Shown here: positions 43,710 to 51,445 of the stretch, one piece after another
Position numbering within the stretch: position 1 is the stretch's first letter
Layout: every line of letters starts with the position of its first letter
Source of the DNA: Opitutaceae bacterium
Lineage (GTDB): Bacteria > Verrucomicrobiota > Verrucomicrobiia > Opitutales > Opitutaceae
Length of the DNA stretch: 64,000 nt
Reading direction: 5' to 3'
Assembly (NCBI GenBank): GCA_016794665.1
Contig: JAEUHB010000162.1
Coordinates: 1 to 64,000 of the forward strand
Translations under genes and position numbers: made by a program
The notes under the pieces: generated by a model
Seen by the model: only the letters and a program-made list of their open reading frames with translations
What the model was told of the DNA's origin: nothing
Databases searched by the model: none

Positions 43710-44462
43710 CTAGGGAGCCACCGTGATCCGGTAGAATCCCGGCGGCAAGCGAGCGCCGATGCGGTGGGTTTCGGTCAAGTAGCGGCGGAAGTGGGTGTCG
43801 ACTTCGTCGACTCGAGATCCCTCCGTGAGCACGAGCGAACTGGACAAGCCCGCCGCGTCAACGGTCGCAAGAAATTCCAAAGGACCCCACGGCTTCGCCG
43901 TGCCGGGCCGGGCTGACACCGGGAGCGCTTCCACCATCACTCTCCTGCCGTCACGTGTCGCCAACACCTCGATGACTGCGCCCCGCGCGGAGACAGGGAC
44001 TACGTCCACCTGACGCCGACCGATCCCGGTCAGCGACGCGAGATCCGTCTCGACGCCGAGGCCGTCCGCGGGCCCCGCTTTGCCCGCCGGGACACCCCCG
44101 ACCAACCCAACCGGAGGCAGATCGCGCTCCGGGTGCAGTTCGGTCTCGGAGGTCTTGAAGGTGCGCGCCTCCGCGTCCAGCAGCGTGCGGCTCGGTTCGC
44201 GGCGAGGTGCGCGCAGGGCAGCATTGCGCAGGGTGGGCAGAAAAAGTGGCCGCAGGTCGCGCAGCTCAGCTTGCTGGCGGAGCAACTCGTCAGCGGGTCC
44301 AGGCTGCGCGATCTCGATTTCGGAAAGCGGCACAACCCGCGGCGTTCCCGGCAAACCCGGCGCCGGCGCGCGGAACAGCGCCGCGGCGCCGCCCACGATC
44401 CCGACGGCCACCACCGCCGAAACAATCCAGCGGTTCCGCTCCGGCATTTGCCCGGCCGCCAT
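43710..44462 (-). CDS. Single-span membrane protein, possible TonB-like transducer
   Basis: 250 residues from the ATG at 44462, one base after the ExbD stop (TAG C ATG). One N-terminal membrane helix (RWIVSAVVAVGIVGGAAALF, ~11-30) is followed by a mostly Pro/Arg/Glu-rich periplasmic stretch and a C-terminal part (GPLEFLATVDAAGLSSSLVLTEGSRVDEVDTHFRRYL ... PPGFYRITVAP) that could be a small TonB_C-like fold. There is no clear (EP/KP)n spacer and no YP motif. It is the last gene of the TPR-ExbB-ExbD operon, and the TonB assignment rests mainly on this position. I recognise no named family. Confidence 0.55.
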   Translation of the reverse strand: MAAGQMPERNRWIVSAVVAVGIVGGAAALFRAPAPGLPGTPRVVPLSEIEIAQPGPADELLRQQAELRDLRPLFLPTLRNAALRAPRREPSRTLLDAEARTFKTSETELHPERDLPPVGLVGGVPAGKAGPADGLGVETDLASLTGIGRRQVDVVPVSARGAVIEVLATRDGRRVMVEALPVSARPGTAKPWGPLEFLATVDAAGLSSSLVLTEGSRVDEVDTHFRRYLTETHRIGARLPPGFYRITVAP

Positions 44463-44463
44463 G

Positions 44464-44913
44464 CTAATGCTTCCCGGCCCCGCCCGCCACAGGCTCGGTC
44501 GCCGCGAGCAGCACTTCGAAGCCCGCCGTCGCCGCCGCACTCGCGATCTCGGTGAGCACGGCGATGGGGGCATCGGCACCGCCGCGCACGAGAAGGACCG
44601 GCTTACGATCGGCAGGCTTGGGCTGGCGCGCGAGCCAGTCCTTGAGATCGGAGAGCTTGCGCAGGCCGTCGCTCGCGTAGACTTGGCTGTGATCGACGAC
44701 ATCGACGACATGGGTCGGGGCTTTGGCACTGGATTCCGAGCCTTTGACGACCGGCAGCCGAAACCGCACCGGCAGGCCTGGCGCCAGCACGAACGGAGAC
44801 CCGAACAACGAAAAGAACAGGACGATCACGCCGGCATTCACAAAAAACACCCAGTCGAAATTCCGCGGCTCCGGGCGCAGCCGCGCGGAAAGCTCAAGCG
44901 GCCGCGTGATCAT
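44464..44913 (-). CDS. Divergent ExbD/TolR-family protein with Asn in place of the membrane Asp
   Basis: 149 residues from the ATG at 44913, overlapping the ExbB-type gene by 4 bp. One membrane helix (residues ~21-41) leads into a periplasmic domain, the ExbD/TolR layout. Aligned without gaps to the ExbD consensus (P-L-I-D ... F-V-x-x-PG), the proton-carrying Asp falls on N26 (FFVNAGVIVLFFSLFGSPFVLAPG). D20, six residues earlier at the membrane edge, is the nearest acidic residue. Proton coupling by the usual mechanism is therefore doubtful. It may use D20, be a structural partner, or belong to a separate subfamily. The C-terminal domain has PVLLVRGGADAPIAVLTEIASAAATAGFEVLLA, matching the ExbD fold. 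Confidence 0.75.
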   Translation of the reverse strand: MITRPLELSARLRPEPRNFDWVFFVNAGVIVLFFSLFGSPFVLAPGLPVRFRLPVVKGSESSAKAPTHVVDVVDHSQVYASDGLRKLSDLKDWLARQPKPADRKPVLLVRGGADAPIAVLTEIASAAATAGFEVLLAATEPVAGGAGKH

Positions 44914-45578
44914 TTTTTGCCCGCGCCGGAGGGCGGAACTTCGGCCGGCGCCGCGGGGCTGAACTCCGTCTGCAGGTAGCGCATGATCTCGTTGCCCGAC
45001 CATTCCATGTCGCGCACGATCGCGCGCACGCGGGCCGAGAGAAAGTGGTGCGCAAGGTGCGCCGGGATCGCGAGCATCAGGCTCGCCGCAGAGACAATCA
45101 GCGCCTGCCACATGCCCGCGGAGAGCGCTCCGGCCATCGCGTAGTTGCCGCCCTGCTCGAACGAGCGAAACGTCGCCATCATCCCGAGAGCAGTCCCGAG
45201 CAGGCCGACGAGCGGCGCCACCTGCGCCACGGCCGCGATCGCGCCGAGGCGCCGCTCGAGCGCCGGCAGCTCAACGATGCCGGCCTCCTGCACATGGAAA
45301 CGCATCGCTTCCGGCGGAGCGTCGGCGTGCAGCAGCGCCGCCTTCACGACCGCCGCCACGGGACCGGGCGCCTCCTCGCATACTGTGATGGCCTCGACCA
45401 GCCGGCGCTTGGCCAGGATGTTGCGGACACCCTCGACAAAGGCCTTCGCCCGAATCTGGCCGCGGTGGAGGTAGAGGATGCGCTCGACGACGAGCGCCAG
45501 GCCGAGCAAGCCCAAGCCGGCCAGCACCCAGAGCATTGGGCCGCCCCGGGCGAAAAGCGTGGAATCGATTCCGGGCAT
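44910..45578 (-). CDS. ExbB/TolQ/MotA-family channel subunit
   Basis: 222 residues from the ATG at 45578. Three membrane helices in the ExbB layout: ~14-33, ~118-138 and ~156-180. The family core APLVGLLGTALGMMATF (~121-137) keeps the channel Thr (T129), and the third helix has IVSAASLMLAIPAH, with Ser at the second conserved Thr position. Expected to form the inner-membrane motor with the ExbD-type protein and energise an envelope process. The stop overlaps the ExbD start. Alternative GTG start at 45605; no strong Shine-Dalgarno at either. Confidence 0.82.
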   Translation of the reverse strand: MPGIDSTLFARGGPMLWVLAGLGLLGLALVVERILYLHRGQIRAKAFVEGVRNILAKRRLVEAITVCEEAPGPVAAVVKAALLHADAPPEAMRFHVQEAGIVELPALERRLGAIAAVAQVAPLVGLLGTALGMMATFRSFEQGGNYAMAGALSAGMWQALIVSAASLMLAIPAHLAHHFLSARVRAIVRDMEWSGNEIMRYLQTEFSPAAPAEVPPSGAGKK

Positions 45579-45639: not shown

Positions 45640-48303
45640 TCATTGTCCTGGGCGCGGCGCCGGCGCGCCGAGCTGCTGGAGCCGCGCGCGCGCGATCGCG
45701 GCGCCGTGCGGCAGGTTGTTCTCCAGCACGAGCTGGTAGGCACGCCGGGCCTCGTCGAGCCGGCCGAGCTTTTCGCAGGCCTCGCCGAGATCGTTGAGCG
45801 TGCGCGCGACCCAGTATAGTCGCTTCGCCCCCGGCCCGGCCGCCGGCTTCCCGACGAAAAGGTCGTTCACCACATCGCGCCACCACACGAGGACCGCCTC
45901 GGCGGGCTTGCCCTCGCGCAGCAGGATCGCACCGAGGTTGTAGCCCGCCTCGACGCGCACGTCGAGCGGCGCGTCGACGCGGTCGCGGAGCTGCTCGAAC
46001 AAGAGCTGCGCCGCCGCCGTGTGGACGCGATCGGGATCGGAGGCGGACTGCGCGTTGCGGCACTTGGCCAGCGCAAGCTGCGCGAAGACGACGTCGGGGC
46101 GGCGCGCGAAGTTGGCCACGAGGTATTCAAACGCCCGCTGCGCCGCCGGCAGATCGTTTCGCGCCATGAAAATCTCGCCCTGCTTGAGCCGCGCCGCGAA
46201 CAGCAACTCATGATCCGCGCCCGCCTTGTCGATGAGTTCCTCGATGCGGCGGTTGGCTTCGCGCAGATTTTCCTCGCTGCCGAGGCGCTCGGAGAGCAGC
46301 GCAAGGCGGTAAAGCGCGTAGGGGAAATAGGGGTTCGCGCGGTAGTCGTCGTTGTCGGTGAGGCCGATGAGCGCGCGACGCGCCTCGACGATCTTGTCCT
46401 GGGCGGCGTAGTGCTCGGCCTCGCTGAGGTAGGAGGCGACCGCCGCGTCGGTGCGCGAGTGTTCGGCGCGCAGACGGCGCAGCGTCTCAAGCGCCGCGGC
46501 CTCGCGGCCAAGGCCGAGCTCGGCCCGGGCCTTGAGGTGGAGCGCGATGCCACCGATCCCACCCTGGAGCGCGCCCGAAACCTCGAGCGGCGCAGCGAGC
46601 AGCGCGTCGGCGAGCCGCACCGTTTCCTCGGGCTGGCCATTGTCGAAGGCGAGTTGCGCGCTCAGCCACATCATGCGCGCACGCAAATCGGCCGGCAGCG
46701 CCGCCGGATCCGGCCCGGCGAGGAGCGCCTGGACGCGCGCCTGCGCCTCGGCCGCCCGCGCGCCGCCCTGCAACTGAAGCGCCCGCGCGAGGTCCCACTC
46801 GGCCTGCCAACGGCTCACCGTGTCGAACGCCGGATCCGGCGCCAGTTCGTCGAGCACACGCGCCGCCTCGCCCGAACCGGAACGGATTTCGGCAAGCACG
46901 CGCATAAACATCAGCTCCGCGAGCCTCCGCGGCTCGAGCTCGGCGCGCAGGTCGCGAAGCACCGCGGCGATCGCGTCGGCGGCGTTGCGGAAATCCTCCG
47001 CCCGGAAAGAGGCCTCCGCCTCCAACACACCCAGATCAGTGCGGAGCCGGCCGGGCGCGGCCGAGCCCGCGCCGCCGCTATCGAAGCGCGCGCGCCGCGC
47101 GTAGTCGGCCGCGAGCCGGAACCGGTGCTGCTCCCACGCCGATTGCGTGAGCACGACGAGGGCGTGCACGCGAAGCGGCGAGAGCGGGAACTGGCGGAGC
47201 ATGGCGCTGGCGTCCGCCTCGGCACGGGCGTAGTCCTTGTCCGCAAGCGCGAATTGCGCCCGAGTGAATAGGAGATTTTCCAAAATCGGATGCGGCGGCC
47301 GCGCGGCCACGAGTCGATCCAGCTCCGCGACGAAGGCCCTCCGCTCGGGCTCCGCGCGCGAGGCCTCGGCGAGCAACTGCAGGGCCTGCCGCTGGCGCTC
47401 CGGCTTTTGCCCGCCCTCAAGCACCTGCCCGAGCGCATTGCGCCCCACCCCGGCGCGCCCGCGGTCGCCGATCAGGCCGAGCATGAAGCGCAGCTCGTCG
47501 CGCGCCGCCCGCTCCTGCGCCGGGATGGCGACGAGCACGCCCTGCAGCCGTGTGACCGCCTCCGCCTCGCGGCCCGCCAAGGCGAGCATCACTGCGTAGG
47601 AGAGTTCGAACTGATAGCCGATGGCGCGGCCGGCGTAGTTCTGGGCGTTCTCCTTGGTATTTTTCAGCTCGGCGTCGGTGGGCCGGTGGCCGAGTCGCAG
47701 CCGCACCTGCTCACCCGCGAGTTGGAAGCGTGCCCGCGCGATTTCGGTCGCCGCGGTCGTCTCGGCCTGCCGGTAGAACTGGTTCGCGCGCGTCATGTCG
47801 CGCGGCGTCGCCGTGTCCCATAATGCGCCAGTGAGAAAAGCGTGCCACGGTCGGTCAGCTTCGGGGAGCTCATCGGCCTTCAGCGCATCCCACTGCGCCT
47901 GCGCCTCGGCCCGCTTGCGAAGATAGAGCGCCGCCAGGCCCGCCCGGAGCCGCCACGGTGCGCCGCGCGGCTCCGGCACGGCGGCGAGCGCGGCCTCGGC
48001 TTCCGCCGCGCGTCCTGCGTCCAGCAGCGCCGTCGCGAGGGCCAGCCCCAGCACCGTGCGATCCGCGCCGGGCGCGGCGAGCAGATCGCGATAGCCGTCC
48101 GCCGCGATCGAGGGAAACCCAAGATCGTGCGCGCGCTCCGCCGCGGCGCGATCGAGCACGCGCGCGCCGGCCGCCGCCATCACGGGCTCGCCGCCGAGTG
48201 GCGCGGGCAGCGTCAGCGGCGGCAGCGGCGCATCCGCGGCGCGCGCCGCGATGAGCAGCCCCACCCCGATCAGCCAACGGAATTTTCCACGACACCTCGC
48301 CAC
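45640..48303 (-). CDS. Large secreted TPR protein of the ExbBD operon
   Basis: 887 residues from the GTG at 48303, which has an AAGGTG Shine-Dalgarno 8 nt upstream. A signal-like N terminus (CRGKFRWLIGVGLLIAARAADA) precedes an almost all-helical protein with many degenerate TPR and TPR-like pairs, clearest near the C terminus (VRVEAGYNLGAILLREGKPAEAV; LGEACEKLGRLDEARRAYQLVLENN). It is probably periplasmic or outer-membrane associated. It is the first gene of the operon with ExbB/ExbD/TonB-like genes, 61 bp ahead of exbB. Such TPR-plus-motor sets recall energised envelope machines (Tol-Pal, gliding Agl/Glt), but the role here is unknown. The longer open frame upstream overlaps the lemA region and was rejected. 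Confidence 0.78.
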   Translation of the reverse strand: MARCRGKFRWLIGVGLLIAARAADAPLPPLTLPAPLGGEPVMAAAGARVLDRAAAERAHDLGFPSIAADGYRDLLAAPGADRTVLGLALATALLDAGRAAEAEAALAAVPEPRGAPWRLRAGLAALYLRKRAEAQAQWDALKADELPEADRPWHAFLTGALWDTATPRDMTRANQFYRQAETTAATEIARARFQLAGEQVRLRLGHRPTDAELKNTKENAQNYAGRAIGYQFELSYAVMLALAGREAEAVTRLQGVLVAIPAQERAARDELRFMLGLIGDRGRAGVGRNALGQVLEGGQKPERQRQALQLLAEASRAEPERRAFVAELDRLVAARPPHPILENLLFTRAQFALADKDYARAEADASAMLRQFPLSPLRVHALVVLTQSAWEQHRFRLAADYARRARFDSGGAGSAAPGRLRTDLGVLEAEASFRAEDFRNAADAIAAVLRDLRAELEPRRLAELMFMRVLAEIRSGSGEAARVLDELAPDPAFDTVSRWQAEWDLARALQLQGGARAAEAQARVQALLAGPDPAALPADLRARMMWLSAQLAFDNGQPEETVRLADALLAAPLEVSGALQGGIGGIALHLKARAELGLGREAAALETLRRLRAEHSRTDAAVASYLSEAEHYAAQDKIVEARRALIGLTDNDDYRANPYFPYALYRLALLSERLGSEENLREANRRIEELIDKAGADHELLFAARLKQGEIFMARNDLPAAQRAFEYLVANFARRPDVVFAQLALAKCRNAQSASDPDRVHTAAAQLLFEQLRDRVDAPLDVRVEAGYNLGAILLREGKPAEAVLVWWRDVVNDLFVGKPAAGPGAKRLYWVARTLNDLGEACEKLGRLDEARRAYQLVLENNLPHGAAIARARLQQLGAPAPRPGQ

Positions 48304-48427: not shown

Positions 48428-49030
48428 ATGAGCACTGCCCTCATCGTTCTCATCGCGCTCGGCGCCCTTGCCCTGATCCTGGTCCTGTGGATCGCGGGCA
48501 TCTACAACAAGCTCGTCGAGCTCCGGAACCGCTTCAAGAATGCCTTCGCCCAGATCGACGTGCAGCTCAAGCGCCGCTACGATTTGATTCCCAACCTCGT
48601 CGAGGTCGCCAAGGGCTACATGAAGCACGAGAGCACCACGCTCGAGGCCGTCATCAAGGCCCGCAACATCGCCCTCGCCGCCTCGCAGACCGCCGCGGCC
48701 AATCCCGCCGACGCCAACGCCATGAAGGGTCTGCTCTCCGCCGAGGCCGGCCTCGGCGGCGCGCTCTCGCGCCTGATGGTCGTCTCCGAGCAGTATCCGG
48801 ATCTCAAGGCCAACCAGAACATGATGCAGCTCACCGAGGAGCTGACCTCGACCGAGAACAAGGTCTCCTTCGCCCGTCAGGCCTACAACGACGTCGTCAT
48901 GGCCTACAACACCGCGCGCGAGACCTTTCCGAACGTGATCTTCGCCGGCATGTTCGGCTTCCTGCCCGCCGAGCTCTTCAAGATCGAGGACCCCTCCGAG
49001 CGCAACGCGCCCAAGGTGAGCTTCGCCTGA
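48428..49030 (+). CDS. lemA: LemA family protein
   Basis: 200 residues. N-terminal membrane helix (ALIVLIALGALALILVLWIAGIYN), then the LemA signature: YNKLVELRNRFKNAFAQIDVQLKRRYDLIPNLVEVAKGYMKHES, FARQAYNDVVMAYNTARETFPNVIFAGMFGF. A coiled helical periplasm- or cytoplasm-facing bundle. First of a three-gene plus-strand set with a DUF6941-like gene and an M48 peptidase; LemA is often linked to such membrane proteases. Confidence 0.93.
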   Translation: MSTALIVLIALGALALILVLWIAGIYNKLVELRNRFKNAFAQIDVQLKRRYDLIPNLVEVAKGYMKHESTTLEAVIKARNIALAASQTAAANPADANAMKGLLSAEAGLGGALSRLMVVSEQYPDLKANQNMMQLTEELTSTENKVSFARQAYNDVVMAYNTARETFPNVIFAGMFGFLPAELFKIEDPSERNAPKVSFA

Positions 49031-49052
49031 CCCGGCAAACCGAATCCATCGC

Positions 49053-49445
49053 GTGAAAATCGAAGTTCTCGCCCTGTGCGACTTTGCCGCCGACTACGGC
49101 GGGAAACTCAGCGTCGTCGGCCTGTTCGACTCCATCTTCGCCCGGCAGGTGCCGGCCGTGCACCCGCACTGCTGCCTCGCCGTGAAGCTGCGGTTCGACA
49201 AGGCCGAAGCCGGCCAGCACGCGCTGCGCCTCACCATCTGCGACGATGACGGCAAGGCCGTGCTCGCGCCGATGGAGCTGACCGTCAACGTCGCCATGCC
49301 ACCCGACGCGCTCACCAACACCATCCAGGTCGTGGCCAACATCGCCGGGCTCAAGCTCGACACCTTTGGCGAATACGCCATCGACCTCGCGCTCGACGGC
49401 CGGCACGAGGGGAGCACGCCGCTTTTCGTGCGGCAGGCCAAGTAG
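49053..49445 (+). CDS. DUF6941-like protein
   Basis: 130 residues from a GTG at 49053, 22 bp after lemA. It begins MKIEVLALCDFAADYGGKLSVVGLFDSIF, with HPHCCLAVKLRFDKAE, LTICDDDGKAVLAPMELTVNV and FGEYAIDLALDGR. This matches the DUF6941 pattern, a beta-rich protein of unknown function. No signal peptide or membrane segment. The lemA/M48 location suggests a linked role, but that is inference. Confidence 0.7.
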   Translation: MKIEVLALCDFAADYGGKLSVVGLFDSIFARQVPAVHPHCCLAVKLRFDKAEAGQHALRLTICDDDGKAVLAPMELTVNVAMPPDALTNTIQVVANIAGLKLDTFGEYAIDLALDGRHEGSTPLFVRQAK

Positions 49446-49483
49446 CGGCGCGGCCGCGCGCCGCCGGCAACGCCACGCCCGGC

Positions 49484-51445
49484 ATGGATTTCTTCGAGGC
49501 CCAGGCCCGCGCCAGGCAGCGCACGTCGCGGCTGATCCTGTTCTTCGCGCTCGCGGTCGCCGGCATGATTGCGGCGGGATATTTCGCCGCGATCTTCCTC
49601 CTGCACCACGCGGGCGGGCACGAGGCGGCGCAGGCGCTGCTCGGTCGCCTCGATCCGCACGCCGACTCCATCGTGCTCTGGCAGCCGGACGTGCTGGGCG
49701 TCGTCGCCGCCGGCACGCTGTTCGTCGTGGGCGCGGGCTCGCTGTTCAAGTGGCTGCAATTTTCCGGCGGAGGCGGCGCGGTGGCCGAGAGCGTCGGCGG
49801 CCGGCGCGTCGATCCGCACACGACTGAGTTCAAGGAGCGCCGCCTGCTCAATGTCGTCGAGGAGATGGCCATCGCCTCCGGCGTGCCGATGCCCGCGGTT
49901 TACGTGCTCGACGACGAACCCGCGATCAACGCGTTCGCCGCCGGGCTCACGACGAAGGACGCGGTCGTCGCGGTCACGCGCGGCACGCTGGAAAAACTCA
50001 CCCGCGAGGAACTGCAGGGCGTGGTGGGCCACGAGTTCAGCCACATCCTCAACGGCGACATGCGGCTCAACCTCCGGCTCGCCGCCACGATCTTTGGCAT
50101 CCTCGTGATCGGACTCGCGGGCCGCGGGCTGCTCTGGGGCTTGCGCCACGCACGCGTGCGAACCGACCGCGACAAGAACGGCGGCGGCCTTGTGCTCATC
50201 CTGATCGGCGTCGGCCTTGCGCTGCTCATCATTGGCTACGTCGGCTACTTCTTCGGCCGGCTGATCCAAGCCGCGGTCTCGCGCCAGCGGGAATTTCTGG
50301 CGGATGCGTCCGCCGTGCAATTCACGCGCAACCCCGCCGGCCTCGGCGGCGCGCTGAAAAAAATCGGCGGCTACGCGCTCGGCTCGAGCATGCAATCGTC
50401 CAAGAGCGCGGCAATCGGCCACTTCTTTTTCGCGCAGGGCTTCCGTTCCCATTTTGGCGGCCTCTGGGCGACGCACCCGCCCCTCGGCGAGCGCATCCGC
50501 GCGATCGAGCCGCGCTTCGACGGCAAGTTCTTCGATCCCCCCGAGGTCGTCGATGTCGGGCGGCAGTCGTTTGTCTCCGCCGGCCTTGCGCCCGCGCGGC
50601 CCGCCCCGCCGGTGCTCGCGCCAGCCGCGGCTCTCGCCGGCCTCGCTGCCGCCGGCTCACTCCCTCCCGCCGCCATCGACGCCGCGCACGACCTGCTCGA
50701 GAGCACGCCCGACCGCCTGCGCCTCGCCGCGCAGACGACCGGCGAGGCCCGGCTGCTCGTGTGCGGCCTGCTCCTCGCCGACGATCCGGCGGTGCGTGCC
50801 GGGCAGCGCAACATCGTTGGCGCCCACTACGGCGGGGAGTCCCTCCGCCAGCTCGACCAGCTCGAGTCATCGCTGCAGAGGCTCCGCCCGGAGCACAAGC
50901 TGCCGTTGCTGCAAATCGCGCTCCCCGCGCTGCGCTCGCTGCCCGCCCCCGCGCTCGGCACGTTTCTCGGCACGCTCGACGCGCTCGTGCATGCGGACGA
51001 GCACGTCTCCGCCTTTGAGTTTGCGCTGCAAAAGACCATCGCCCGCGCGCTGGCGCTCGGCCGCCCCGGCGGTGAGGTTGTGCAGATTCACTCGTTCAAC
51101 GCCGTGACCGCCGAGCTCTCCGCCGTGCTGAGCTTGCTGGCGCGCGCGGCCACGGCCGAGCCGGAGCGCGCCGCGCAGTCGTTCGCGGCCGGCGCCGCGC
51201 AGCTCCCGCTCGTCGCCGCGCAGCTGCAGTTCCTGCCCGAAAGCACCGCGACGCTCGCGCAACTCGACGGCGCGCTGGACAAGCTCGCGACCGCGAGCCC
51301 CGCCATCAAGCAACGCACGCTCGTGGCCGCCGCGCACACCGTGACCGCCGACGGCCGCCTGCTTGTCGCCGAGGGCGAGCTGCTCCGCGCCATCGCCGCC
51401 GCGCTCGATGTGCCCGTGCCGCCGCTCGGAGCGGTGGCCGCCTGA
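49484..51445 (+). CDS. M48 family membrane zinc metalloprotease with long C-terminal extension
   Basis: 653 residues. Two N-terminal helices (~18-40 and 70-90), the active site HEFSH (183-187) with the third zinc ligand E270 in REFLADASAVQF, and two more helices (~201-219, 234-258) as in HtpX. HtpX has ~290 residues; here ~330 more follow, a helical, Ala/Leu-rich segment (from ~360) with a second compact unit near the end (AAAHTVTADGRLLVAEGELLRAIAAALDVP). It probably degrades or trims misfolded membrane proteins. 38 bp after the DUF6941-like gene, in the lemA set. Confidence 0.9.
   Translation: MDFFEAQARARQRTSRLILFFALAVAGMIAAGYFAAIFLLHHAGGHEAAQALLGRLDPHADSIVLWQPDVLGVVAAGTLFVVGAGSLFKWLQFSGGGGAVAESVGGRRVDPHTTEFKERRLLNVVEEMAIASGVPMPAVYVLDDEPAINAFAAGLTTKDAVVAVTRGTLEKLTREELQGVVGHEFSHILNGDMRLNLRLAATIFGILVIGLAGRGLLWGLRHARVRTDRDKNGGGLVLILIGVGLALLIIGYVGYFFGRLIQAAVSRQREFLADASAVQFTRNPAGLGGALKKIGGYALGSSMQSSKSAAIGHFFFAQGFRSHFGGLWATHPPLGERIRAIEPRFDGKFFDPPEVVDVGRQSFVSAGLAPARPAPPVLAPAAALAGLAAAGSLPPAAIDAAHDLLESTPDRLRLAAQTTGEARLLVCGLLLADDPAVRAGQRNIVGAHYGGESLRQLDQLESSLQRLRPEHKLPLLQIALPALRSLPAPALGTFLGTLDALVHADEHVSAFEFALQKTIARALALGRPGGEVVQIHSFNAVTAELSAVLSLLARAATAEPERAAQSFAAGAAQLPLVAAQLQFLPESTATLAQLDGALDKLATASPAIKQRTLVAAAHTVTADGRLLVAEGELLRAIAAALDVPVPPLGAVAA

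Follow-up and report, generated by a model that had tools for sequence, protein, structure and literature searches.

A four-gene operon, in the order TPR, ExbB, ExbD and TonB-like, lies on the minus strand of the window (the whole stretch of 64,000 nucleotides analysed here, from an Opitutaceae bacterium). The first gene (45640..48303, its GTG start at 48303 being uncertain) encodes a secreted protein of about 887 aa with weak TPR matches in Pfam. The second (44910..45578) encodes an ExbB/TolQ-type subunit of 222 aa, which scored above the cut-off of the MotA/TolQ/ExbB profile PF01618 (85 bits, E = 4.2e-24). The third (44464..44913) encodes an ExbD/TolR-type subunit of 149 aa, read from an ATG at 44913 to a TAG ending at 44464 (protein sequence MITRPLELSARLRPEPRNFDWVFFVNAGVIVLFFSLFGSPFVLAPGL...), and the fourth (43710..44462) a putative transducer of 250 aa. 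The ExbB start lies 61 nt downstream of the TPR stop, the ExbB stop and ExbD start overlap as ATGA, and the TonB-like ATG follows the ExbD stop by 1 nt; the coupling of these genes proposed in the first-pass annotation is therefore real. In NCBIfam, the TPR protein also hit PorW/SprE weakly (2.8e-6, under the cut-off), which is a lead only. PorW/SprE is a TPR lipoprotein of type IX secretion, a system powered by the GldLM 5:2 motor. Divergent from the TPR gene, on the plus strand (48428-51445), are LemA-like and M48 (HtpX-like) peptidase genes, named by eye.

The product of the fourth gene was predicted to comprise one membrane helix (residues 9-30, AlphaFold2), a linker and a C-terminal domain with a TonB/TolA-CTD fold. 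The top five VIA-align rows for this domain were all TonB or TolA C-terminal domains (Z 4.5-5.3), with unrelated rows at 3.8 or less; a Pfam search gave no match and Foldseek E values were above 1. With moderate confidence, the model thus identifies a TonB/TolA-type transducer.

Taken alone, the window ExbD fell below the Pfam ExbD cut-off (E = 0.0066), and PF02472 was matched by all 37 of 37 orthologues (E up to 0.1; best 4.5e-15). A profile built from the alignment of these 37 orthologues found solved ExbD structures using hmmsearch (7ajq_F, E = 2.3e-13; 6tyi_Y, E = 8.3e-12), and the AlphaFold2 model of the periplasmic domain matched solved ExbD domains (8pek, Foldseek probability 1.00). In both sequence and fold, the window protein and its orthologues belong to the ExbD/TolR family. 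The membrane Asp of MotB, TolR and ExbD has been described as essential and as strictly conserved. In the window protein, this proton-carrying residue is replaced by Asn: residue 26 (codon 44836-44838) paired with D25 of Escherichia coli ExbD (motif TPFID), gap-free around the site, whilst D20 paired with ExbD N19. The earlier proposal that Asn26 stands at the canonical proton-carrying position is thereby borne out and, at the level of sequence, confirmed. A misalignment, with D20 as the real counterpart of D25 and no residue missing, is exceedingly improbable: D20 is the only acid nearby, but the profile alignment to two solved ExbDs is gap-free, some orthologues carry both D20 and D26 (e.g. 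L073, RFDPVAFVDVAV) and the predicted membrane helix (22-37, AlphaFold2) begins just after D20.

Distribution of residue 26 across the phylum

Orthologues were found in 92 of the 115 relatives searched, and among the 90 loci read, the TPR protein was recognised in 84 and a fourth gene in 77. The set was then widened with other classes of the phylum and with named records, including Geminisphaera colitermitum TAV2, Cephaloticoccus capnophilus and C. primus (all Opitutaceae) and Verrucomicrobia bacterium IMCC26134. Further records were scanned with the ExbB alignment, the ExbD alignment offering no conserved stretch. This gave 187 distinct TPR-ExbB-ExbD loci readable at position 26, usually with the TonB-like gene last. 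The residue was Asn in 128, Asp in 48, Ala in five, Ser in three, Leu in two and Thr in one, in a sample weighted towards Opitutaceae, so that the counts should not be read as population frequencies. With 128 distinct loci carrying Asn26, chance or an assembly error is excluded.

A maximum-likelihood tree was inferred from ExbB and ExbD with the trait columns excluded. Parsimony placed nine losses of Asp and zero regains on the best tree, strongly supported branches forcing just three of these changes. One Opitutaceae branch accounted for 125 rows, of which 118 carry Asn, 4 Ala and 3 Ser; Asp is retained in the sister rows from this family. In comparison, Asp was read by profile in 73/73 readable other ExbD copies of related genomes, a control drawn mostly from the same genus and with a few overlapping loci. 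The first-pass annotation had suggested checking whether Asn defines a clade linked to the TPR gene, and the 125-member clade and the 187 orthologous loci support this. It had also named Asp26 homologues within the clade as a possible contradiction. Inside the clade there were none (0/125); same-operon orthologues in sister lineages do have Asp, which makes Asn the derived state and shows that the operon itself is not specific to Asn.

Residue 26 was also amongst the better conserved positions of the membrane helix. Its entropy across the 125-member clade was 0.37 bits, versus 0.9-2 for most helix neighbours, and Asn26 therefore looks, from the alignment, to be selected rather than merely tolerated. 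Close pairs within the Asn and Ala groups gave dN/dS values of 0.04-0.17 for ExbD and 0.01-0.12 for ExbB, similar to those of Asp pairs; the range of 0.04-0.17 indicates that the genes are functional.

Proton gate and transducer histidine

The window ExbB retains T129, equivalent to ExbB T148, and carries S163 at the T181 position and Q158 at the E176 position. The T148 equivalent was Thr in 48/48 Asp rows and in nearly all non-Asp rows. The T181 equivalent was Thr or Ser in 48/48 Asp26 rows. Of the 140 rows without an Asp score, 49 had a residue lacking the hydroxyl there (Ala, Val, Phe or Leu), many clade members among them. With the first Thr kept and the second position still Thr or Ser in 82/128 Asn rows, the gate has been relaxed, not abolished. 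On the tree, 22 hydroxyl losses were inferred, 19 on non-Asp branches and 3 on switching branches. None fell on Asp branches over 36.9 units of branch length, versus 19 + 3 over 43.8 units elsewhere (P = 1.4e-6, assuming losses proportional to branch length with all branches treated alike, on a rapidly built tree, some of whose branches are long). This branch-length test was used in place of an independent-pairs test of Thr loss, which yielded just three pairs and had no power.

The E176 to Gln change was rejected as part of the switch, with Gln present in 30/48 Asp-type orthologues. Other ExbB positions also differed between the groups (window numbering). Residue 119 was mostly Arg, Lys or His in the Asp type and Gln in 124/125 of the Asn clade, and residue 136 was Thr in the Asn clade and differed from the Asp type. 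Residue 162 was Thr or Ser in 48/48 Asp-type rows and Cys, Ala, Ser or Thr in the clade, and residue 166 was Gly in the Asp type and Ser or Gly in the clade.

The SHLS-type membrane His, which docks on ExbB/TolQ, is absent from the window transducer. This His, which in Asp-type transducers resembles TonB H20 and TolA H22, occurred in 28/34 transducers accompanying Asp26 and in 0/126 accompanying Asn, Ala or Ser26 within the order. The association is weaker once descent is considered: of the eight Asp-loss lineages having a transducer gene, four lost the His on the same branch and four keep it, and seven further His losses fell on Asp branches. As a strict companion of Asp loss, loss of the His is thus weakened, with L132, L133, L135, L136 and L151 keeping His without Asp. 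The TonB-like gene itself is absent in some lineages (L169/L170 and L081/L085).

A candidate non-rotating complex and its alternatives

The operon resembles several known systems. Like the Ton motor (ExbB-ExbD-TonB), it encodes adjacent ExbB-like and ExbD-like subunits, the latter with the solved periplasmic fold, and a transducer with a TonB/TolA-type C-terminal domain. It differs in the replacement of ExbD D25 by Asn, in the relaxation at ExbB T181, in the absence of an equivalent of TonB H20 and in having a secreted TPR protein at its head. As regards TolQ-TolR-TolA, the ExbB-like protein had TolQ (9avi, 8vlw) as its best sequence matches in the PDB, and a TPR protein accompanies the motor, as CpoB does there. 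However, the residue equivalent to TolR D23 is replaced, the operon is without TolB/Pal and its TPR protein, at about 887 aa, greatly exceeds CpoB in size. TPR-TolQ-TolR-TolR-vWA clusters of PVC bacteria (PMC12204202), from the same superphylum, likewise combine TPR, tolQ-like and tolR-like genes with a membrane-anchored transducer, but have two TolR-like proteins and a vWA transducer with His, whereas here there is one ExbD and a TonB/TolA-type C-terminal domain. The Asn at the proton site is shared with Campylobacter jejuni MotAB carrying MotB D22N (PMC9389320), a laboratory mutant there and the natural state of a whole clade here. Exact-phrase searches of open-access text turned up no description of naturally Asp-less ExbD proteins.

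The substitutions ExbD(D25N) and TonB(H20A) each abolish activity in E. coli (PMC11658791). Proton transport depends critically on TolR D23 and on TolQ T145 and T178, and TolA H22A fails to pull down TolQ (PMC12965293), whilst MotB D22N has been described as a mimic of the protonated state (PMC9389320). By these data, proton cycling would not be expected of the clade complex, nor the usual mode of docking of its transducer.

Residue changes, phylogeny, covariation with ExbB and purifying selection are all observed for this operon, and the Asn swap under strong selection suggests that a rotary motor became something not run on protons. Judged by analogy with the characterised motors, we lean towards a motor-derived complex, no longer coupled to protons, that lives on as a scaffold spanning the envelope without rotating. 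The operon would encode an ExbB/ExbD complex, presumably of the 5:2 type, together with a transducer like TonB/TolA and a TPR partner in the periplasm. Its ancestor would have been a proton-driven motor of the same operon, of a kind that keeps Asp26 elsewhere in the phylum. At the base of the large Opitutaceae clade, Asp would have given way to Asn, which is neutral and mimics protonated Asp, and the proton gate and the transducer-docking His may have been freed from constraint. The complex would most likely neither conduct protons nor rotate and is probably a static trans-envelope assembly by which the TPR and TonB-like components are held. Asn26 may be retained so that the two ExbD helices can pack and form hydrogen bonds inside the ExbB pore.

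The broader proposition is that a Ton/Tol-type subfamily repeatedly, and once clade-wide, became selected 'pseudomotors' that keep architecture and transducer and give up proton coupling; we regard this as evenly balanced. If true, such complexes would be similar to pseudoenzymes, which keep their fold without catalysis. A selected Asp-less clade with Asp-keeping sisters also offers a natural experiment on the roles of the 5:2 architecture besides rotation powered by protons, and on the set of partner residues linked to proton flow. For annotation, homology alone is insufficient to name an ExbB/ExbD/TonB-like operon an energiser.

An unlikely alternative is an ion-driven motor with the proton carried by another residue, either D20, ExbB Glu158 or a His in ExbB TM3. 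Strong purifying selection would fit such a motor. A search for mid-membrane carboxylates in the ExbB and ExbD segments found none common except Glu158, retained in 15/125 of the clade, and the Gln otherwise found at this position also occurs with Asp26. ExbB His174 is enriched (109/125 in the Asn clade versus 4/48 in the Asp type), and 100/125 members of that clade share D20. D20 was, however, rejected as a substitute acid: it lies outside the predicted helix, has a similar frequency beside Asp26 (31/48) and is gone in the Ala26 lineage (L029, L031, L033 and L034), which is without both D20 and D26 and, by alignment, has His174 replaced as well. The second proton-gate Thr, moreover, decays solely where Asp is missing. 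Of the two options offered in the first-pass annotation, a motor using a different acid is thus not supported, and preference now goes to one that is not proton-driven in the usual way.

It is also unlikely that the Asn-type ExbD heterodimerises with an Asp-bearing ExbD from another locus, leaving a motor that runs on one proton site. The checked genomes of the genus do have several Asp-bearing ExbDs, and heterologous TolR-like pairs have been described in PVC bacteria (PMC12204202). Yet the operon has one ExbD and its own ExbB, the paralogues are very divergent (a search with protein query P0002 gives one match per genome), and neither the ExbB Thr relaxation nor loss of the TonB-like His would be expected if protons passed this ExbB.

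Simple decay, with neutral loss once motor function became dispensable, would account for the repeated loss of Asp (nine times) and for lineages without a TonB-like gene (L169/L170, L081/L085). We consider it very unlikely given the dN/dS values of 0.04-0.17, the open reading frames throughout the clade, the retention of Asn itself in 118/125 and the conserved four-gene order.

Some lineages outside the large clade had distinctive arrangements. L132-L149 belong to other classes of the phylum; there the four-gene operon tends to be flanked by a uvrA-like gene on one side and a hisD-like gene on the other (named by eye), and several of these loci have Asn26 yet keep the transducer His. L169 and L170, from another family of the same order, combine Leu26 with ExbB pore residues AAA or AEA and have a uppS-like gene behind ExbD in place of any TonB-like gene; the proton path is lost more completely here than anywhere else in the set.
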